From assembly GCF_010093025.1 (NCBI RefSeq), contig NZ_CP048114.1, positions 2,294,001 through 2,358,000 of the forward strand: a DNA stretch of 64,000 nt. Reading direction: 5' to 3'. The stretch comes from Edaphobacter sp. 12200R-103 (GTDB lineage: Bacteria; Acidobacteriota; Terriglobia; Terriglobales; Acidobacteriaceae). How positions within the stretch are numbered: the first letter of the stretch is position 1; each line of letters begins with the position of its first letter. The translations under genes and the position numbers were made by a program. Shown piece by piece: positions 9,023 to 17,031 of the stretch. Below the pieces are notes generated by a model. The model saw only the letters and a list, made by a program, of their open reading frames with translations, made no database searches and was not told the DNA's origin.

Positions 9023-9334
9023 CTACTTCTTTGCCTTGTTTGCGATGATCTGGTCTTTGATCTTGTCGTAGACGCCCTGTGGCAGGATGCCGCGCGAAGC
9101 CAGCTGATTCTTTGCAGTGTAGGGACGGCCGTCGATGATCCGTTTCGCGTAAGCGTCTCCAATACCCGGAACGGCCTTGAGCTGGTCCGCAGTTGCTGTG
9201 TTGATATCAATCTTGTCAGCGGTGGCGGCAGCGGTGGCGGCCGGTTTTTTGGTCGAAGCCTTCTGAGCCGTCATAGTGAGGGGAAGAGTCGAAAAGAGCG
9301 TCGCGGCGATCAAAAGATTACGAAGGATACGCAT
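9023..9334 (-). CDS. ComEA-like helix-hairpin-helix protein
   Basis: A 103-residue exported protein: signal sequence (MRILRNLLIAATLFSTLPL), a short Ala/Thr/Lys linker, then a helix-hairpin-helix DNA-binding module with the standard phrase DINTATADQLKAVPGIGDAYAKRI. This is the layout of small ComEA-type proteins, which bind incoming DNA in the periplasm during natural transformation. No other competence gene is nearby, so a role in DNA uptake is an inference from the family. It converges with the LecA/LssY_C gene and diverges from the his operon. Confidence 0.8.
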   Translation of the reverse strand: MRILRNLLIAATLFSTLPLTMTAQKASTKKPAATAAATADKIDINTATADQLKAVPGIGDAYAKRIIDGRPYTAKNQLASRGILPQGVYDKIKDQIIANKAKK

Positions 9335-9472
9335 ATGCGGTGGAACTCCTGAAGGGAATAACCTGCAGTTGCAGAGGAAGAGTACGGAACCACAGCTTTC
9401 CCGTCAAACAATAACTTCACCGGCCTTCGGTGATTCCAAGGGGCTTGGCGCTGCCCCCACGTCGGGCATTTT

Positions 9473-9511
9473 GGAGGCAGGTTGACTTACAGTCGCCTCC
9501 AACGCTACTCT
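9473..9511 (+). promoter_or_regulatory. Possible his operon promoter with flanking dyad
   Basis: TTGACT at 9482-9487 and TACTCT at 9506-9511 are separated by 18 bases. GGAGGC (9473-9478) and GCCTCC (9495-9500) form an inverted repeat around the -35 box. If used, transcription would begin near 9518, three bases before the leader ATG, so the leader peptide would be essentially leaderless. This is a consensus guess only. Confidence 0.35.
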
Positions 9512-9520
9512 GAAAATGCG

Positions 9521-9604
9521 ATGCGTTCGCTGAACCTCCATCACGGACATCACCATCATCATGCGCAGAGCGTGTTGGCGGCTATGTCCGGTGTGGCGAA
9601 GTAA
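9521..9604 (+). CDS. hisL: His operon leader peptide
   Basis: A 27-codon ORF, ATG to TAA, with seven His codons in a window of eight (HHGHHHHH, codons 7-14, at 9539-9562). A His run of this kind directly upstream of a his operon and followed by a terminator is the hallmark of attenuation: shortage of charged tRNA-His stalls the ribosome in the run and changes the folding of the downstream RNA. There is no ribosome-binding site before the ATG, and the preceding bases resemble a -10 box, so translation may be leaderless. The peptide itself is expected to have no function beyond being translated. Confidence 0.85.
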   Translation: MRSLNLHHGHHHHHAQSVLAAMSGVAK

Positions 9605-9669
9605 CGAAGCTCGAGACCACAGGATTCTGAAAGGCCCGCTCAACGCGCATACCGCGAGCGGGCCTTTTT
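9574..9669 (+). promoter_or_regulatory. His attenuator: antiterminator and terminator
   Basis: Terminator: AAGGCCCGCTC (9631-9641) pairs perfectly with GAGCGGGCCTT (9656-9666) and runs into TTTTT (9665-9669). Competing pairing: GTTGGCGG at 9574-9581, inside the leader ORF, can pair with CCGC (9636-9639) and CAAC (9641-9644), leaving T9640 bulged; this consumes the 5' arm of the terminator. The antiterminator arm begins 12 bases after the last His codon, about the downstream reach of a ribosome stalled in the His run, whereas a ribosome reaching the stop codon at 9602 would cover it. The pairings are read from the sequence; the mechanism is inferred from the enterobacterial his model. Confidence 0.8.
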
Positions 9670-9697
9670 ACGTGTCAACGACCGATTGGAGATTGAA

Positions 9698-10054
9698 ATG
9701 GCTGAAGCACCCCAGACCGCTGCACCCCAAATCGACTTTGCCAAGATGGACGGCCTCGTCCCCGGCATCGTCCAGGACCATAAGACCGGCGAGATGCTCA
9801 TGCTGGGCTTTCTCAACGAAACCAGCTACCAGAAGACCCTTGAGTCCGGATTTGTCACCTTCTGGAGCCGCACCCGCAGCAAGCTGTGGATGAAGGGCGA
9901 GACCAGCGGCAATCGCCTGCGCATCATCGAGGCTTCGACCGACTGCGACAACGACGCCCTGCTCTTCCGCGTCGAGGTGGAAGGCGATGGCCTTGTCTGC
10001 CACGAGGGAACCGTAAGCTGCTTCACCAAAAAGATCGAAACGGAGAAGAAGTAA
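9698..10054 (+). CDS. hisI: Phosphoribosyl-AMP cyclohydrolase
   Basis: Opens the ring of phosphoribosyl-AMP in the third step of histidine synthesis; a zinc enzyme. Seen: the single cyclohydrolase domain with MLGFLNETSYQKTLESG, FWSRTRSKLWMKGETSGN, DCDNDALLFRVE and VCHEGTVSCF; the Cys residues of the last two blocks are the zinc ligands in the family. At 118 residues it lacks the HisE pyrophosphatase domain that many bacteria fuse to HisI. The start is the ATG at 9698 with TGGAGA just upstream; a TTG 12 bases earlier has no such site. Its stop codon is directly followed by the hisG start. It is the first structural gene after the attenuator. Confidence 0.95.
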   Translation: MAEAPQTAAPQIDFAKMDGLVPGIVQDHKTGEMLMLGFLNETSYQKTLESGFVTFWSRTRSKLWMKGETSGNRLRIIEASTDCDNDALLFRVEVEGDGLVCHEGTVSCFTKKIETEKK

Positions 10055-10939
10055 ATGAGCAACGTGCAGAAGAAGCTGAAGCTCGGAATTCCCAAGGGAA
10101 GTCTGCAGGACGCAACCATCGCGCTGTTCCAGCGTGCCGGCTGGAACATCTACGCCAACGGCCGCAGCTACTTTCCGTCGATCGACGACACCGAAATCGA
10201 ATGCATGCTGGTCCGTGCGCAGGAGATGGCTCGCTACGTGGAACACGGCGCGCTCGACGCCGGGCTGACCGGCAACGACTGGGTACTTGAGAACCAGCAC
10301 AGCGTGGAATACGTCACCAGCCTCACCTACTCCAAGCAGAGCCGCCAGAAGGTGAAGTGGGTGCTCGCTGTCCCGGAGGATTCGCACTACCAGAAGCCCG
10401 AGGACCTGGCTGGCTGCATCATCGCTACTGAGCTGGTCGAGTTCACCAAGCGCTACTTCGCTTCGAAGAACATCCCGGTCAAGGTTGAGTTCAGCTGGGG
10501 CGCGACCGAGGTGAAGCCTCCCACGCTGGCCGACGCCATCGTCGAGGTCACCGAGACCGGAAGCTCCCTACGTGCCAACCGCCTGCGCATCATCGAGACC
10601 CTGATGGAGAGCGAGACCCAGCTGATCGCCAACAAGACTGCCTGGAAGGATGACTGGAAGAAGGCGAAGATCGAGACCATCTCGCTGATGCTGAACGCCG
10701 CCATCGCCGCCCAGGGCCGTGTTGGCCTGATGCTGAATGCAAAGGCGGCTGATCTTCCCCTTGTCATTAACGTCCTCCCCGCGCTCAATTCTCCGACCAT
10801 CTCGCAGCTTAGCGATCCCGCCTGGGTGGCGCTCAATACCATCCTTGACGAGTCCGAAGTTCGCGATGTCATCCCCAAGCTCAAGGCCGTTGGAGCCACA
10901 GGCATTGTCGAGTATCCGCTGAGCAAGGTCGTTCTCTAA
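10055..10939 (+). CDS. hisG: ATP phosphoribosyltransferase, long form
   Basis: Catalyses the first, committed step of histidine synthesis, joining ATP and PRPP. Seen: [22 protein letters not shown] at the start, the phosphate-binding segment [19 protein letters not shown], and a C-terminal extension of about 75 residues with the ACT-like fold pattern ([26 protein letters not shown]). At 294 residues this is the long, hexameric form in which the C-terminal domain binds histidine for feedback inhibition, so HisZ should not be needed. Its ATG follows the hisI TAA with no gap, which suggests translational coupling. Confidence 0.96.
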
Positions 10940-10962
10940 AGAAGAGGAATGGAGCCGTCACG

Positions 10963-12231
10963 ATGAAGTTGGTAAAGACCTACGGACGCACCGCGAAGTC
11001 CGCCGCCGCCCTGATCGCATCGATCGAGCGGCGCGGCGCGGTCAACACGGCAAAGGTGGAACCCGTGGTGCGCCGTATCCTCGCGGATATCCAGAAGAAT
11101 GGTGATACCGCGCTACACAAATACGCTGCGAAGTTCGATGGACTGCCAAAAAAACAGCCGCTGCTGGTCACACGCGAAGAGATGCGCGCGGCCTGGGAGG
11201 AGACCGCTCCCGAGCTGCAGGCAGCCATGATGATCGCGCGTGGCAACATCCTCGCCTTTGCCGAGGCGCAGCTTCCGCAAGAGTGGAGCTTCGATGCCAC
11301 AGACGGCGTCAAGACCGGTCAGATCGTTCGGCCGCTGAGCTCAGTCGGCTGCTATGTTCCCGGAGGACGCTATCCTCTCCCGTCCACTTTGCTGATGACC
11401 GCCACTCCCGCGCAAGTCGCTGGCGTAGAGCGCATCGTGGTGTGCTCGCCCAAGCCTGTGCGCGAGACGCTTGCCGCCGCGTATCTCGCTGGAGTTACCG
11501 AGTTCTATAGGATCGGCGGAGCGCAGGCCATTGCGGCGCTTGCCTATGGCACCGACACCATCGCGCCGGTCGACAAGATCGTCGGGCCCGGCAATCTTTT
11601 TGTCACCGCTGCGAAGACGCTCGTCTCAACTCAATGCGGCATCGACATGCCCGCTGGTCCTACGGAGATCGTCGTCACCAGCGAGCGGGGATACGCTCCC
11701 GGCATCGCCGCCGATCTGGTCGCTCAGGCCGAGCACGATCCTGAAACGCTTGCCATCCTGATCACCAGCAATGAGAAGCTCGCCAACGATGTTGCTGACG
11801 AAGTGAAGCTGCAAGCGAAGAGCAACAAGATCGCAAAGCAGTCGCTGGCAGCACAGGGAGCCATCTTTATCACCCAGACGGTCGAGGAGGCACGCGAGCT
11901 GACGAATCGCCTCGCTCCGGAGCACCTCACGGTCGACTCTGCCAGCGATCTCAAGTGGGTGCAGAACGCGGGCTCCGTCTTCGTCGGCGACTACGCTCCG
12001 CAGTCGATGGGCGACTACGTCTCCGGTCCCAACCACGTGCTCCCCACAGGCCGCGTAGGTCGCGTACGTGGCGGCCTCAGCGTTCTTGATTTCGTTAAGA
12101 TCATTACGGTTCAGGACTACACGCGAAAAGGACTCGGCAAACTCGGTCCGCACGCCATTGCTCTGGCAACGGCGGAAGGGCTGACCGGCCACGCTGAAAG
12201 CGTTCGCGTACGAATGAGGTCAAAGCAATGA
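10963..12231 (+). CDS. hisD: Histidinol dehydrogenase
   Basis: Zinc- and NAD-dependent enzyme that oxidises histidinol to histidine in two steps, the last of the pathway. Seen: VGCYVPGGRYPLPSTLLMT, the signature IGGAQAIAALAYGT, KIVGPGNLFVTAAK, the zinc-site segment DLVAQAEHDPET, and NRLAPEHL with the catalytic Glu-His. The 422 residues match the family. It starts 23 bases after hisG with GAGG about 12 bases upstream of the ATG, and its last codons overlap the hisC start by four bases. Confidence 0.97.
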   Translation: MKLVKTYGRTAKSAAALIASIERRGAVNTAKVEPVVRRILADIQKNGDTALHKYAAKFDGLPKKQPLLVTREEMRAAWEETAPELQAAMMIARGNILAFAEAQLPQEWSFDATDGVKTGQIVRPLSSVGCYVPGGRYPLPSTLLMTATPAQVAGVERIVVCSPKPVRETLAAAYLAGVTEFYRIGGAQAIAALAYGTDTIAPVDKIVGPGNLFVTAAKTLVSTQCGIDMPAGPTEIVVTSERGYAPGIAADLVAQAEHDPETLAILITSNEKLANDVADEVKLQAKSNKIAKQSLAAQGAIFITQTVEEARELTNRLAPEHLTVDSASDLKWVQNAGSVFVGDYAPQSMGDYVSGPNHVLPTGRVGRVRGGLSVLDFVKIITVQDYTRKGLGKLGPHAIALATAEGLTGHAESVRVRMRSKQ

Positions 12232-13322
12232 GCACATCATCGAGCACTGCGACTGTGAAACCGCGCCCCCTCGTCCTCGAGATGCCGGAGTATCATCCGC
12301 CGCTCGCCGGCCGCGATGCTCTGCGGCTGGACTTCAATGAGAACACGCTGGCGCCTTCGCCGGTCGTTATGGACCGGCTGAAGCAGATCACTGCCGAGCA
12401 ACTTACCGTGTATCCCGAGCGCGAAGTGGGCGAACGCAAGCTGGCCGCCCACTTCGGCCTTGAGGCATCGCAGGTCCTGCTGACCAACGGAGTCGATGAG
12501 GGCATCCATCTGGTGTGCTGCACCTTTCTTGAAGACGGCGATGAAGCCATCATCTCGCCTCCATCCTTCTTCATGTACGACGTCTCGATCTCCCTGATGA
12601 CACGCGGCCTGGTCAAAGTGCAGGCCGACGAGACGCTGCAGTTTCCTTTTGAGCGGGTTCTCAACGCTATCAACGAGCGGACCAGGCTCATCGTCGTCGC
12701 CTCTCCCAATAACCCTACTGGGGCAACCGCCAGCCGTGCTCAGCTTCTGGCAATCGCGAATGCAGCACCCCATGCCGTGCTATTGGTAGACGAAGCCTAC
12801 TTCCACTTTCATGGCGAAACGGTTCTCGATGATTTGGCGACAACGCCCAACCTCCTCGTCGCCCGGACCTTCTCCAAAGCCTATGGCATGGCGAACCTGC
12901 GCATCGGGATGCTTGCGGGAAGCCCGGAGCTTATCGGGTATCTGCGCAAAGCAAGTTCGCCCTACAACATCAACGGCATCGCGCTCGATTGTCTCTCAGC
13001 CGCGCTTGAAGACGACGCCTATATCAACTGGTACGCCGAGGAGATCCGCACTGGACGCGAACGCGTCATGGGCGCGCTCGATGAGATGGGAGTGCACTAC
13101 TTCCCCAGCGCCGCCAACTTCGTGCTGATGAAGATCGGACCGCTCCACAAGGAACTGGTCGCTGCGATGCGGCGTCGGGGCGTCCTGCTGCGCGATCGTT
13201 CTGCCGATCCGGGCTGTGACGGTTATGTTCGCATCACCGTCGGAGTCAGCGATCATGTAACCCGAGGACTCGAAGCATTGAAAGCATCACTCGACGAGAT
13301 CGGCTGGAAACCGCAATACTGA
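12228..13322 (+). CDS. hisC: Histidinol-phosphate aminotransferase
   Basis: PLP-dependent fold-type I aminotransferase acting on imidazole-acetol phosphate. Seen: RLDFNENTLAPSP near the start (substrate binding), VVASPNNPTGA, the PLP-contacting DEAYFHF, the Schiff-base lysine in TFSKAYGMANLRIG (Lys217), and a C-terminal Arg in YVRITVGV. Length is 364 residues. Start ATGA overlaps the hisD stop, a sign of coupling. A copy of repeat family B separates it from hisB, the only long spacer in the operon. Confidence 0.95.
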   Translation: MSTSSSTATVKPRPLVLEMPEYHPPLAGRDALRLDFNENTLAPSPVVMDRLKQITAEQLTVYPEREVGERKLAAHFGLEASQVLLTNGVDEGIHLVCCTFLEDGDEAIISPPSFFMYDVSISLMTRGLVKVQADETLQFPFERVLNAINERTRLIVVASPNNPTGATASRAQLLAIANAAPHAVLLVDEAYFHFHGETVLDDLATTPNLLVARTFSKAYGMANLRIGMLAGSPELIGYLRKASSPYNINGIALDCLSAALEDDAYINWYAEEIRTGRERVMGALDEMGVHYFPSAANFVLMKIGPLHKELVAAMRRRGVLLRDRSADPGCDGYVRITVGVSDHVTRGLEALKASLDEIGWKPQY

Positions 13323-13367
13323 GAATGGAAACCAGAAAAGACCATTCTTCCGATACACACTGTCGCT

Positions 13368-13438
13368 TTGTTAAGGGCACGGCTTCAGCCGTGCCGAAAA
13401 GAATCAAAGGAGAAAGGGCTTTAGCCCCTGAGGTCCCA
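13368..13438 (+). repeat. Dispersed intergenic repeat, family B, between hisC and hisB
   Basis: Contains the palindrome GGCACGGCTTCAGCCGTGCC at 13376-13395, then GGGCTTTAGCCCCTGAGG. The same two blocks, in the same order and spacing, occur at 53019-53080 and 59101-59171. The GAGG at 13430-13433 lies six bases before the hisB ATG and is the only visible ribosome-binding site for that gene. Confidence 0.85.
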
Positions 13439-13439
13439 G

Positions 13440-14060
13440 ATGCCAAAGGCACGCACAGCAACCGGCTATAAGCCAAGAACAGCAACGATCAAGCGCAATA
13501 CCACCGAGACGCAGATTGCGCTCAAGCTGAACATCGACGGCACCGGCGTCTATAAGGTCTCTACCGGGATCCGCTTCTTCGATCACATGCTGGAGCTCTT
13601 CACCCGTCACGGCGGCTTCGATCTTACGCTCACCTGCACGGGCGATCTCGACGTCGACCAGCACCACACCGTCGAAGACGTGGGCATCGCGCTCGGCGAG
13701 GCCTTCAATAAGGCGCTCGGCGATAAGAAGGGCATCCTGCGCGCAGGCTACTTCGTGATGGCGATGGACGAGACGCTCGCCGTCGCTGCCGTCGATCTCT
13801 CAGGCCGCGTCGCCTACGTCGTCGACGATAAGGTGAAGGTGCGCCTAGTGGGAGACTTCCAGTCCGAGCTGCTCGCCGACTTCTTCGACGGCTTCGCCCG
13901 CGGAGCCAAGGCCAACGTTCACGTGAAGACGATGTACGGCCGCTCCAACCACCACAAGATCGAAGCGATCTTCAAGGCTTTTGCACGCGCTCTGCGTGGA
14001 GCGTGTTCGCGTGATGAGAGGATGGCCGAGATTCTGCCGAGCACGAAGGGCTTGCTGTGA
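13440..14060 (+). CDS. hisB: Imidazoleglycerol-phosphate dehydratase
   Basis: Removes water from imidazole-glycerol phosphate; manganese enzyme of 24 subunits. Seen: NTTETQI, the metal-binding [17 protein letters not shown] and [17 protein letters not shown] blocks, [17 protein letters not shown], and the second metal site [18 protein letters not shown]. The 206 residues correspond to the dehydratase alone, with no fused HisN phosphatase. The first 13 or so residues are basic and not conserved. The ATG follows the end of a family-B repeat, which supplies GAGG as probable ribosome-binding site. The stop overlaps the start of the next ORF. Confidence 0.96.
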
Positions 14061-14341
14061 ACATGGACGCCCGCCTGCGCCGGAGCATCTTCAAGGTGGG
14101 CGTGTATGCGTTTGTCACCAATCTTATGTTCTATGGCCTTTGGCAGCAGCTTTCTTCGAGATTCACTCCTTGTCATGGGAAAGCGGTCGGGGTTGAAGTG
14201 GGTTTGGCCTTTGCACTCATAACAGTCGTTCTCGCTCTCTTTGGTAAAGGTATGGGCCGATGGCTGCTGGCTGCTGCCGGCCTTGTGGCTTCTTACTTCT
14301 GGTTTAGCTGGATTACCTGGATAGGACAAATGCAATGCTAG
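14057..14341 (+). CDS. Small membrane protein in the his operon
   Basis: A 94-residue protein I do not recognise. Three hydrophobic stretches fit membrane helices: about residues 14-30, 46-62 and 68-90 ([18 protein letters not shown]). It is coupled on both sides: the GTG at 14057 overlaps the hisB stop (GTGA; an ATG at 14063 is the alternative start), and its own stop lies inside the first codons of hisH, a seven-base overlap. That arrangement suggests real translation, but nothing in the sequence links it to histidine chemistry. Confidence 0.65.
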
Positions 14342-14943
14342 CCGTTATCGACTACAAAGCGGGCAACCTAACCAGCGTCCTCAAGGCGCTGCACTACCTC
14401 GGCGCGGAGACACACGTCACGCAGTCGCCTGACGACGTGCGCAACGCAAGCAAGATTGTTCTGCCCGGCGTAGGGCACTTCCAGGCGACGCAGCTTCTGC
14501 ATGACCTTGAACTCACGGAAGCTACCCGCGAAGCGATCGCGAGTGGCGTGTCGTTCCTCGGCATCTGTGTTGGTCTTCAGTGGCTGTATGAAGGATCGAC
14601 CGAAGCAGAGGCAACGGAAGGTCTCTGCCACTTCGGCTCGAAGTGCGAACGCTTCCCTGCCAGCTTCAACGGCGCAGAGCTGAAGTCGCCGCATGTCGGC
14701 TGGAACTCGCTTGAGAACATTCGCGAAGACTCACGCCTACTGCGCGGCGTTGCGCCCGGCGGCTTCGTCTACTACACGCACTCATGGCGCGCGCCGGTGA
14801 GTGCAGATACAGCCGCAACCACCAACTACGGTGGCGACTTTACCGCAGCGGTCGAGCGCGACAACGTGATGGGCGTGCAGTTCCATCCCGAAAAGTCGAG
14901 CACCGTCGGCCTACAGATCCTCAAGAACTTCGTGGAGCTATAA
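14335..14943 (+). CDS. hisH: Imidazole glycerol phosphate synthase, glutaminase subunit
   Basis: Class-I glutamine amidotransferase that releases ammonia and passes it through the HisF barrel. Seen: IDYKAGNLTSVLKAL, the LPGVGHF oxyanion-strand segment, the nucleophile elbow LGICVGLQ with Cys78, and the His-Glu pair in FHPEKSS near residue 183. Length is 202 residues. The ATG at 14335 lies within the end of the preceding membrane ORF. Its partner hisF is one small ORF downstream. Confidence 0.96.
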   Translation: MLAVIDYKAGNLTSVLKALHYLGAETHVTQSPDDVRNASKIVLPGVGHFQATQLLHDLELTEATREAIASGVSFLGICVGLQWLYEGSTEAEATEGLCHFGSKCERFPASFNGAELKSPHVGWNSLENIREDSRLLRGVAPGGFVYYTHSWRAPVSADTAATTNYGGDFTAAVERDNVMGVQFHPEKSSTVGLQILKNFVEL

Positions 14944-14945
14944 CC

Positions 14946-15239
14946 ATGCCATTCGTCTATGAACTCATGCTCGCCGAAGAGACGTCCCAGGCGCAGTACA
15001 AGCTCGCGCAGCAGCTCGTCCCCGCGGGTACGCTCGTCGGTACCGGGCAGAACATCGCCGTGCTCTCCGACGGCAAATGCGAGTTCCATCTGCGCGCACC
15101 GCTGCAGGGTCTGCTGGTGGGCTGGTTCGCCGAGAGCGGAGACTCCCTCGATCCCGACGAGCCTCTCGCACGCATCGTTGCGGAGGGTGCCGAACGCCAG
15201 GTCGACGCCGTAACACCCGTGAGATCGCAACCATGTTGA
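14946..15239 (+). CDS. Lipoyl/biotinyl-like domain protein between hisH and hisF
   Basis: A 97-residue protein. After a short N-terminal part it has the pattern of a biotinyl/lipoyl hammerhead: [16 protein letters not shown], then [11 protein letters not shown], then [20 protein letters not shown]. In biotinyl domains the middle block is AMKMEF and in lipoyl domains it contains DKA; here a lysine (Lys44) sits at the equivalent turn but neither motif is complete. It may be a modified carrier, or a fold reused without cofactor. The start two bases after the hisH stop, and an end that overlaps hisF by seven bases, tie it to the HisH-HisF pair. A family role in histidine synthesis is not known to me. 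Confidence 0.72.
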
Positions 15240-16012
15240 CCAAACGCATCATCGCCTGCCTCGACGTCCGCGACGGCCGCGTCGTCAAAGGCATCCAGTT
15301 CGTCGATATCATCGATGCCGGCGACCCCGCCGAGCTCGCGCACCGGCACGCAGCCGCGGGAGCCGACGAGATCGTGCTGCTCGATATCACGGCCACACAC
15401 GAGGGTCGAGGCACACTGCTCGATACGGTGAAGCGCACTGCTGCGGAGCTGTTCGTTCCCTTCACGGTCGGTGGCGGCATCCGCTCTGCAGAAGACGCGG
15501 CGGCGGTCTTCGATGCTGGTGCTGACAAGGTCAGCATCAACTCCTCTGCCATCGCTCGTCCAGAGCTGATCGGCGAGATCGGCTCAAGCTTCGGCGCGCA
15601 AGCCGTTATCGTCGCCATTGATGCTCGACGCGCGGAAAACTCAGCCGACCCGGTCGGTGATGCCGAGGTCTTCGTCGCCGGTGGCCGTAAGCCCACTGGG
15701 CGCAAGGTGATTGAGTGGGCACGCGAAGCTGAGCAGCGCGGTGCGGGCGAGATTCTGCTGACCAGCATGAACACCGATGGCATGCGTTCGGGCTTCGACT
15801 GCGAGCTGACAGCACGCGTCTCCGAGGCCGTGCAGATCCCCGTGATCGCCAGCGGAGGCGCAGGTTCGGCGGCGCACTTCGCGGAGGTCTTCGGACGCGG
15901 TAAAGCCGATGCCGCGCTCGCCGCGAGCATCTTCCACTTCGGCGTGACGGACTCACGCGAGCTGAAGGCCGAGCTGCAGCGGGCCGGCGTTCCCGTTCGC
16001 CTACCCTGCTAG
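15233..16012 (+). CDS. hisF: Imidazole glycerol phosphate synthase, cyclase subunit
   Basis: TIM-barrel enzyme that uses ammonia from HisH to make imidazole-glycerol phosphate and AICAR. Seen: [16 protein letters not shown] with catalytic Asp11, [19 protein letters not shown] (phosphate site), VAIDARR with the second catalytic Asp, [14 protein letters not shown], and PVIASGGAG. Length is 259 residues. The ATG at 15233 lies inside the last codons of the lipoyl-like ORF, so the frame further upstream is not used. Confidence 0.96.
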
Positions 16013-16020
16013 CATTTTGT

Positions 16021-16317
16021 ATGACGAGTTTCTGGCTGGCCTTCCTCGCCGTGCAGTTTGCAGGACTGCTCGGTTCTGTGGGTGTCGGGATCTTCCATCA
16101 AAACCCTCTCGGCTTCGCCTGCCATCTGGCCGCAATCGTCTTGCTCGAGCCCGGCCTGGTCCTCGCTCGGGCCATCATCGACAAGTTCTACTGGGAGAGA
16201 TTCACCTCTGAAGACCTCTTTCGCTATGCCTCCGTCCTGAGCTTCTTTGTGAACATTGTTCTGGCCATCTGGGCGCGCGCCTTCTTCAATGCACTGCGTC
16301 CACAGCGCGATACCTGA
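16021..16317 (+). CDS. Small membrane protein between hisF and hisA
   Basis: A 98-residue hydrophobic protein with likely helices at about residues 4-24, 33-52 and 68-88; not recognised. It fits tightly in the operon, eight bases after hisF and 12 bases before hisA, on the same strand. It is the second small membrane ORF in this operon (see 14057-14341); the two do not look alike by eye beyond hydrophobicity. Confidence 0.6.
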   Translation: MTSFWLAFLAVQFAGLLGSVGVGIFHQNPLGFACHLAAIVLLEPGLVLARAIIDKFYWERFTSEDLFRYASVLSFFVNIVLAIWARAFFNALRPQRDT

Positions 16318-16329
16318 GAGAATATCGAC

Positions 16330-17031
16330 ATGCTTATACCCTCTATCGACCTTATGGGCGGCCGCATCGTGCAGCTCGTCCAGGGTGAAAAGCTCAAGCT
16401 CGCCTTTGATGATTTCGACTATTGGATCGAGCGTTTCAATAAGTATCCTCTCGTCCAGCTCATCGACCTCGATGCAGCTATGCGGCAGGGATCGAACGCC
16501 GAGCTGATCTCGCAGTTCACCTCGAAGCTCCCCTGCCAGGTGGGCGGAGGCCTGCGCACGGCTGAGGATGGCCAGCGCATGCTCGACCTCGGCGCAAAGC
16601 GCGTCATTTATGGCTCGTCGCTCTTTGGCGGAGACAATGATGCCGACCGCAAACGTCACCCACTGATCAACCTCGATTTCGCCCAGAAGCTGCGCGACGC
16701 ACTCGGAGAAGAGCAACTCGTCTTCTCAGTCGACACCAAGGGTGGCCAGGTAGCCGTGCGCGGATGGAAGGAGAACGTTGCGCTCACCCCGGAAGAAGCC
16801 GTCACCTGGCTTGAGGACTATTGTGCCGCCTTCCTTTACACGCACGTCGACACGGAAGGCACGATGACCGGGTTTCCGATCGATGTCGCCGCCATTCTGC
16901 GTGCCACCACGGCAAAACAACTGATCGTCGCCGGAGGGATCAAGGAACGCCGCGAGGTCGACGATCTCGATGGCATGGGTGTGGATGCCGTTGCGGGGAT
17001 GGCGGTTTATTCGGGAGCGATGGAGGCCTAG
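16330..17031 (+). CDS. hisA: Phosphoribosylformimino-AICAR-P isomerase
   Basis: TIM-barrel isomerase, an ancient relative of HisF. Seen: MLIPSIDLMGGRIVQL with Asp7, LIDLDAAM, CQVGGGLRT (phosphate site), VFSVDTKGG with the second catalytic Asp, YTHVDTEGTMTGF, and LIVAGGIKER. Length is 233 residues, and it is the last gene of the operon. The region after it contains only repeats. Confidence 0.94.
   Translation: MLIPSIDLMGGRIVQLVQGEKLKLAFDDFDYWIERFNKYPLVQLIDLDAAMRQGSNAELISQFTSKLPCQVGGGLRTAEDGQRMLDLGAKRVIYGSSLFGGDNDADRKRHPLINLDFAQKLRDALGEEQLVFSVDTKGGQVAVRGWKENVALTPEEAVTWLEDYCAAFLYTHVDTEGTMTGFPIDVAAILRATTAKQLIVAGGIKERREVDDLDGMGVDAVAGMAVYSGAMEA

Follow-up and report, generated by a model that had tools for sequence, protein, structure and literature searches.

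A ribosome-mediated attenuator is the probable regulator of the histidine operon in Edaphobacter sp. 12200R-103 and related Acidobacteriota

The hisIGDCB..HFA operon of Edaphobacter sp. 12200R-103 is very probably controlled by a ribosome-mediated transcription attenuator. A short His-rich leader ORF, an intrinsic terminator, an antiterminator that excludes this terminator, and a promoter-like sequence lie directly upstream of hisI, and this arrangement is conserved in relatives. The mechanism is of a known, classical kind; the present analysis adds a conserved promoter for a putative leaderless start and the spread of the system in Acidobacteria. The locus lies in a 64,000-nt stretch of the chromosome (NZ_CP048114.1, positions 2,294,001 to 2,358,000), which we call the window and whose numbering we use below.

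The first structural gene, hisI (9698-10054, plus strand; PF01502, 100.9 bits), encodes phosphoribosyl-AMP cyclohydrolase. The ORF list and Pfam matches place the other his genes downstream at 10055-17031 on the same strand: hisG starts at 10055, hisD at 10963, and hisB at 13440, and a hisC-like aminotransferase gene at 12228 and a hisH-like glutamine amidotransferase gene at 14335 take their his names from their positions. Two His_biosynth proteins that both match PF00977 start at about 15227 and at 16330, and we take these to be HisF-like and HisA-like, respectively, from the starts of the proteins. A 94-aa ORF without a Pfam match (14057-14340) lies between hisB and hisH. Upstream of the leader, an HHH_3-domain gene (9023-9334) is on the opposite strand, so that the terminator described below cannot be its own and the leader belongs to the operon.

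The leader ORF extends from ATG 9521-9523 to TAA 9602-9604 (9521-9604, plus strand) and encodes a peptide of 27 residues, MRSLNLHHGHHHHHAQSVLAAMSGVAK. Seven of eight codons between 9539 and 9562 are His codons (starting at 9539, 9542, 9548, 9551, 9554, 9557, and 9560) and would be the regulatory codons; a Gly codon (GGA) at 9545 interrupts the run. The sequence-only reading had placed both the 27-codon ORF and the seven His codons at exactly these coordinates. It had also claimed an 11-bp terminator with a T run before hisI. The terminator is present between the leader ORF and the first structural gene (9630-9669, plus strand), but its stem has 12 bp, formed by AAAGGCCCGCTC (9630-9641) and GAGCGGGCCTTT (9656-9667), with nine G+C-rich pairs, three A-T pairs, and a loop of 14; three of the five T residues of the T run (9665-9669) are inside the stem. 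This terminator is absent from the list of the terminator-scanning program because that scan permits loops of only 3-8. When the 171-nt leader RNA was folded, its stability was 3.7 sd better than that of dinucleotide shuffles, and the terminator was present in the fold.

The 5' strand of the antiterminator, arm 2 (9570-9581, plus strand), has the sequence GCGUGUUGGCGG (= GCGTGTTGGCGG) and lies inside the leader ORF. Its 3' strand, arm 3 (9636-9648, plus strand, CCGC-T-CAACGCGC), overlaps the 5' arm of the terminator. The two form a duplex of 12 pairs and one bulged U at -22.8 kcal/mol. The earlier proposal that GTTGGCGG (9574-9581), which begins 12 bases past the last His codon, pairs with CCGC (9636-9639) and CAAC (9641-9644) is borne out by the sequence, with T 9640 as the bulge, but the helix is longer than was proposed and continues with GCGT (9570-9573) against GCGC (9645-9648). 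The antiterminator thus excludes the terminator, and it starts 3' of the putative stall site.

In many predicted leader folds, arm 2 is held in a hairpin with His codons in its loop, as expected for a classical 1:2 hairpin. The hairpin predicted in the window (9545-9589, plus strand) pairs GGACAT (9545-9550) with ATGTCC (9584-9589) and includes inner pairs; it would form only while the His codons are free of ribosomes. We propose that RNA polymerase would begin a short distance, a few bases, 5' of the leader AUG and that a ribosome would load directly at the 5' end. When charged His-tRNA is short, the ribosome would stall in the His run and block the 1:2 hairpin, which would leave arm 2 free to pair with arm 3 before arm 4, the 3' arm of the terminator, is made; the terminator would not form, and the operon would be transcribed. 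When His-tRNA is plentiful, the ribosome would run over arm 2 toward the stop codon, or the 1:2 hairpin would form behind it. With arm 2 unavailable in either case, arm 3 would pair with arm 4, and transcription would end near 9669.

Transcription begins about 7 nt past a -10 box. In the window, a putative -35 box (TTGACT, 9482-9487) and a putative -10 box (TACTCT, 9506-9511) are separated by an 18-base spacer (promoter 9482-9511, plus strand), which places the expected start at about 9518-9521. The window promoter matches 8 of 12 consensus bases and was not detected by the promoter-scanning program at the window leader. Across the family, 45 of 50 leaders match at least 9 of 12 consensus bases, compared with 1.7% of shuffled upstream regions, and in the family form TTGAC(A) and TAnnnT are separated by spacers of mostly 16-18. 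Of the 48 leaders with a score of at least 8, 42 have a -10 box whose end lies 6-12 nt upstream of the leader start; among the other six, L019, L028, and L033 have an in-frame ATG further upstream that fits this distance better. This spacing and the rule of about 7 nt predict a 5' UTR of a few nt, with transcription starting no more than a few bases from the leader AUG. Shine-Dalgarno-like bases precede the leader start in only 2 of 50 family leaders and are absent in 48, the window among them; by a looser count, 41 of at most 49 loci have such bases ahead of at least one candidate hisI start. The promoter spacing and the missing Shine-Dalgarno bases suggest that the leader peptide is probably translated from a leaderless mRNA. 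The accessible part of a survey predicts that 13.3% of genes, on average over three acidobacterial genomes, are leaderless (PMC3160421). When the Edaphobacter genome was scanned with the consensus promoter for further leaderless ORFs, 9 sites emerged, compared with 6 for a reversed-pattern control, and no attenuator was recognised among them.

We determined how widely this arrangement is kept in the family. In a first set of 80 genomes, 54 contained hisI at 55 places, four of which were left out (one whole, three contig fragments) and 51 of which were taken, including that of the window. A short ORF with at least four His in eight codons precedes hisI in 50 of these 51 loci; at the one exception (L048), the contig ends 132 nt upstream of hisI. 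A second collection comprised 80 titled loci, chosen as the best among 403 relatives, and every one of these 80 has a His-rich leader ahead of hisI; the species include Terriglobus roseus, Edaphobacter modestus, Granulicella aggregans, Silvibacterium bohemicum, Terracidiphilus gabretensis, and Acidicapsa dinghuensis. The two sets share some species, and 126 of the 130 leader ORFs are distinct. All 50 leaders of the first set, including that of the window, have 5 to 8 His in eight codons, which compares with no short ORF of at least five His in eight codons and two of at least four in 263.9 strand-kb around the family leaders. CAT is the slower-read His codon, and it makes up 211 of 359 His codons in the leaders compared with 13 of 54 in pieces of hisI. 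A T-tailed hairpin lies 20-45 nt past the leader stop in 46 of 49 leaders scanned (L036 and L048 were left out); the picks of the scan are doubtful for L030, L045, and L047, where a GC-rich hairpin followed by a T run is visible in the sequence.

Of the 26 of 80 family genomes in which hisI is absent, none has HisG and one has HisB, and 17 combine a completeness of at least 90% with a contamination of at most 5%. Many members of this family thus seem to have lost the his pathway and, with it, to be histidine auxotrophs.

In the aligned upstream regions of the relatives, the His run is conserved, and the terminator and antiterminator both covary. Alignment A1 (MAFFT, 50 rows) was built without structure and was not fitted to the antiterminator. 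On it, 83.8% of antiterminator cells are paired compared with 26.8-42.1% in slid registers, and 5 pairs and 13 cells show double-sided change, values matched in 1 and 3 of 500 shuffles, respectively. For the terminator, 80.0% of cells are paired, and double-sided change occurs in 48 cells (reached by 0 of 500 shuffles) and 9 pairs (14 of 500). These counts are support rather than proof, because kinship alone can lift them above shuffles. In the family leaders, the median distance from the last His codon to arm 2 is 8.5 nt, and that from arm 2 to the leader stop is 11 nt. Typical pairs of arms are GUGUCAGCGG with CCGCUGACGC and GUGUCGGCGG with CCGCCGACGC, and forms near that of the window are GUGUUGGCGG with CCGCCAACGC, CCGCUAACGC, or CCGCUCAACGC. 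A motif of about AGGATTC, or GGCCAGAGAGATC in others, recurs between the leader stop and the terminator (L001-L051, L192-L271); no pairing partner was seen for it in the family leaders, and it is possibly a pause or protein site.

Because arm 2 is coding, synonymous recodings sampled according to the codon use of hisI served as the reference for it. The native pairing of the ORF tail with arm 3 is in the best 5% of recodings in 29 of 50 family leaders (median rank 0.033); in the window it is matched by 7.2% of recodings (rank 0.072). When arms were swapped between family members, native pairing exceeded the mean of swapped pairing in 41 of 50 leaders and was in the top 5% in only 5 of 50, which is a weak test because the arms are alike across the family; in nine leaders, such as L009, L013, L015, L019, and L051, native arms were worse than swapped ones. 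The whole leader ORF is more stable than its synonymous recodings at the 5% level in 35 of 50 leaders. Recoding of only the head of the ORF, which contains arm 1, gave values at the 5% level in 23 of 126 distinct leaders for pairing and in 12 of 126 for stability. This signal is far below that of whole-ORF recoding and implies that most of the excess stability resides in the tail codons. Support for selection on arm 1 of this hairpin is modest. On A1, the five inner 1:2 pairs (columns 13-17 with 31-35) are paired in 85.0% of cells and have 18 double-change cells, both more than in every shuffle; for the same pairs, the counts of pairs and of pair types changed were reached by 453 and 307 of 500 shuffles. 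Slid by +2, these pairs still reach 70.3% of cells and a covariation score of 0.266, compared with 0.254 unslid, because the CAY repeats make the sequence periodic. Column-wise covariation of the whole 1:2 hairpin on alignment A2 (77 of the 126 distinct leaders; L004 and L051 left out) was abandoned because its register shifts by two bases between lineages, as judged by eye.

A folding model of the switch asked, for 130 leaders, whether newly made arm 3 is paired upstream before arm 4 exists. The accessible part of one report states that a ribosome covers about 12 nt downstream of the translated codon (PMC4833913); the footprint that we chose masks 18 nt on the 5' side and 14 nt on the 3' side of the first base in the A-site codon. 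When the A site lay 14-17 codons ahead of the stop, arm 3 was paired upstream with a median probability of 0.74-0.80. This value fell to 0.28-0.40 at distances of 12 codons to 1 codon from the stop and was 0.47 at the stop itself, a course that favours the proposed switch. Placed on the first His codon, the ribosome gave a median of 0.78, with 115 of 130 leaders above 0.5, and on the last His codon 0.64 (89 of 130); with the ribosome at the stop, the median was 0.46 and 64 of 130 leaders still permitted antitermination, and with no ribosome the values were 0.64 and 78 of 130. The contrast is weak in the window, where the values are 0.64-0.69 for the His codons, 0.35-0.57 for most tail positions, and 0.69 for the stop. 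As a control, E. coli hisL gave 0.22 for the His codons and 0.43 for the stop, the reverse of the known switch, so that the model is not validated and the case rests on comparison. For the full leader at equilibrium, the terminator has a median probability of 0.99 in the 130 leaders and 1.00 in E. coli, and the decision for antitermination must therefore be kinetic. In this model, the state without a ribosome does not clearly lead to termination; a competing 1:2 hairpin that a stalled ribosome would disrupt is a likely, predicted part of the switch.

We next consider other families of the class and phylum, whose loci were picked by best HMM scores or by family. A His-rich leader precedes hisI in 30 of 50 loci from other families of the class, with all positives in f2 (1 of 1), f4 (5 of 7), f5 (11 of 11), f6 (9 of 9), f7 (2 of 2), f10 (1 of 1), and f13 (1 of 1); none was found before hisI in f3 (0 of 5), f8 (0 of 9), f9 (0 of 3), or f12 (0 of 1). 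Among the 20 misses, 15 have a same-strand open frame of 250 codons or more that terminates no further than 400 nt upstream, as do 12 of the 30 positives, and some of the missed hisI genes may therefore be internal to operons. Elsewhere in the phylum, such a leader precedes hisI in 8 of 50 loci (f25, f34, f43, f53, f55, and f67). The 37 distant leaders within 330 nt, a limit that excludes the leader found at L076, all have a terminator candidate by a loose rule, although that of L102 is without a real T run. A promoter score of at least 9 was reached by 21 of these 37 leaders and by none of the 11 in f5, which usually have a -10 box but no -35 box. Tail pairing beats 95% of recodings in 17 of 35 testable distant leaders, the tails of L118 and L128 being too short. 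By eye, the arms in f4 and f7 are like those of the window's family, and those of f5, f6, and other classes are unlike them.

Where hisI does not lead, 24 of 29 loci had no His-rich ORF in the sequence available upstream of hisG, which was at most 1.5 kb; hisG may not lead in these loci either. In f27, two His-rich leaders and two T-tailed hairpins stand in series before hisG in all four genomes, from two genera (L178, at about 950-1330 of the reverse complement, L310, L311, and L312), apparently as tandem his attenuators. Both f35 genomes (L173 and L308) have one leader and terminator 1.1-1.2 kb before hisG, and in L173 the gene next after the leader resembles hisZ by eye. In f37, L180 has a His-containing ORF before hisG (at about 1180-1255 of the reverse complement) with TATAAT seven bases 5' of its ATG and no clear terminator; its control is perhaps at translation. 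We consider it likely, with less confidence than we hold for the attenuator of the window, that these loci represent an old, phylum-wide class of his attenuators that is unrelated in sequence to the proteobacterial one, with a leaderless peptide, arms that drift from family to family within a constant layout, varied first genes (hisI, hisG, or hisZ), and, in one family, a doubled copy before hisG.

The his attenuator of E. coli and Salmonella (Rfam RF00514) likewise combines a leader peptide of His codons (hisL, MTRVQFKHHHHHHHPD), an intrinsic terminator before the first his gene, and a mutually exclusive antiterminator. The E. coli hisL ORF stops two codons past the His run, and its regulatory arms are mostly beyond the leader stop, whereas the acidobacterial ORF continues and contains arm 2. 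The first gene is hisG in E. coli and hisI here, where the leader ORF is also apparently leaderless. RF00514 His_leader (gathering threshold 49 bits) had no match in the window, none up to E = 10 in 9400-9750, and none in 12 relatives, and the E. coli control scored 131.6 bits. Sub-threshold Rfam hits (CRISPR-DR23, ncr1175, adapt33_4, and Thr_leader) were taken as chance. The part of the sequence-only reading that recognised ribosome-mediated his attenuation agrees with the conserved ORF and with the covariation of both pairings, and relatives without the ORF or the terminator, which that reading had named as a refutation, are not what the comparison showed; but the element is not the enterobacterial one. 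In Actinobacteria, mycobacterial polycysteine uORFs are leaderless leader-peptide attenuators that lack a Shine-Dalgarno sequence and carry a run of codons for one amino acid; these differ from the present leaders in phylum and in using Cys rather than His, and the present leaders resemble them in the missing SD, in the run of codons, and probably in a leaderless start.

That reading had also regarded attenuation of this kind as best documented in Proteobacteria; his attenuators have already been described in Firmicutes, and the acidobacterial case extends beyond Edaphobacter sp. 12200R-103. The accessible parts of two studies describe leader peptides as known from Proteobacteria and Actinobacteria, add those of bacilli (PMC2965389), and add further Firmicutes his attenuators (PMC9413887), so that His leader peptides are reported from the B. 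cereus group, relatives of C. difficile, and Erysipelotrichales (PMC2965389, PMC9413887). In those parts, the Firmicutes systems share with ours a His run, a terminator, and an antiterminator before histidine-related genes in a non-proteobacterial phylum, but they have 3-5 consecutive His codons and occur in small groups of species, compared with 5-8 of eight codons in several families here; a leaderless start is not mentioned in them (PMC2965389, PMC9413887). The first of these studies also notes that associated functions are missing from almost all attenuators predicted for phyla like Acidobacteria (PMC2965389). A literature search that drew mostly on titles and abstracts, with little coverage of subscription papers, found no description of leader-peptide or his attenuation in Acidobacteria. 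If an acidobacterial case was predicted earlier, Lopatovskaya and others, 2010, is a likely source.

Three other explanations were weighed against attenuation. The leader could encode a functional His-rich peptide, for example one that binds metals, with the hairpin as the ordinary terminator of its gene. His runs do bind metals, and both the conservation of the ORF and the likeness of the peptide tails among family members fit this idea, but the conserved tail residues (VSA, VLA, and MPA) coincide with arm 2. Moreover, the tails vary between families (GHTPRPLRCA, VCQRA, and GGRSLF), yet pairing with the terminator arm persists, and the antiterminator outdoes synonymous recodings in the 29 of 50 family leaders given above. 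The Edaphobacter genome has 61 sites with four His codons, two of which are the leader itself. The first 30 were examined; seven entries among them were short His-rich ORFs, of which two had weak candidate hairpins, and these 30 sites held no second copy of the leader layout. We therefore regard a peptide function of this kind as very improbable.

Control could instead be exerted through translation or Rho, if stalling exposed or hid the hisI start or a rut site. The His-containing ORFs before hisG in L180 and in L176 and L309 of f28 have no clear terminator, and variants of the translational or Rho type may therefore exist. Such a scheme for the window's operon is at odds with the T-tailed stems that follow nearly all family and distant leaders and with the hisI gene's own SD-like bases, and we give it as little weight as the peptide. 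T-boxes and HisR control his genes in Gram-positives, according to the accessible part of PMC9413887, and a T-box, a riboswitch, or a HisR-type repressor could in principle use the terminator here, with the His ORF as incidental. Rfam found no T-box or riboswitch in the window or in 12 relatives, and 130 of the 131 family-level loci retain a His-rich leader; another sensor is the least probable of the three. Thus, we conclude that ribosome-mediated attenuation is the best explanation of the locus.

With well over 100 natural variants, this attenuator offers material for learning which spacings matter. The leader ORFs and the family models are candidates for inclusion in annotation. The system also raises the question of how attenuation works when the sensing ribosome would start on a leaderless mRNA.
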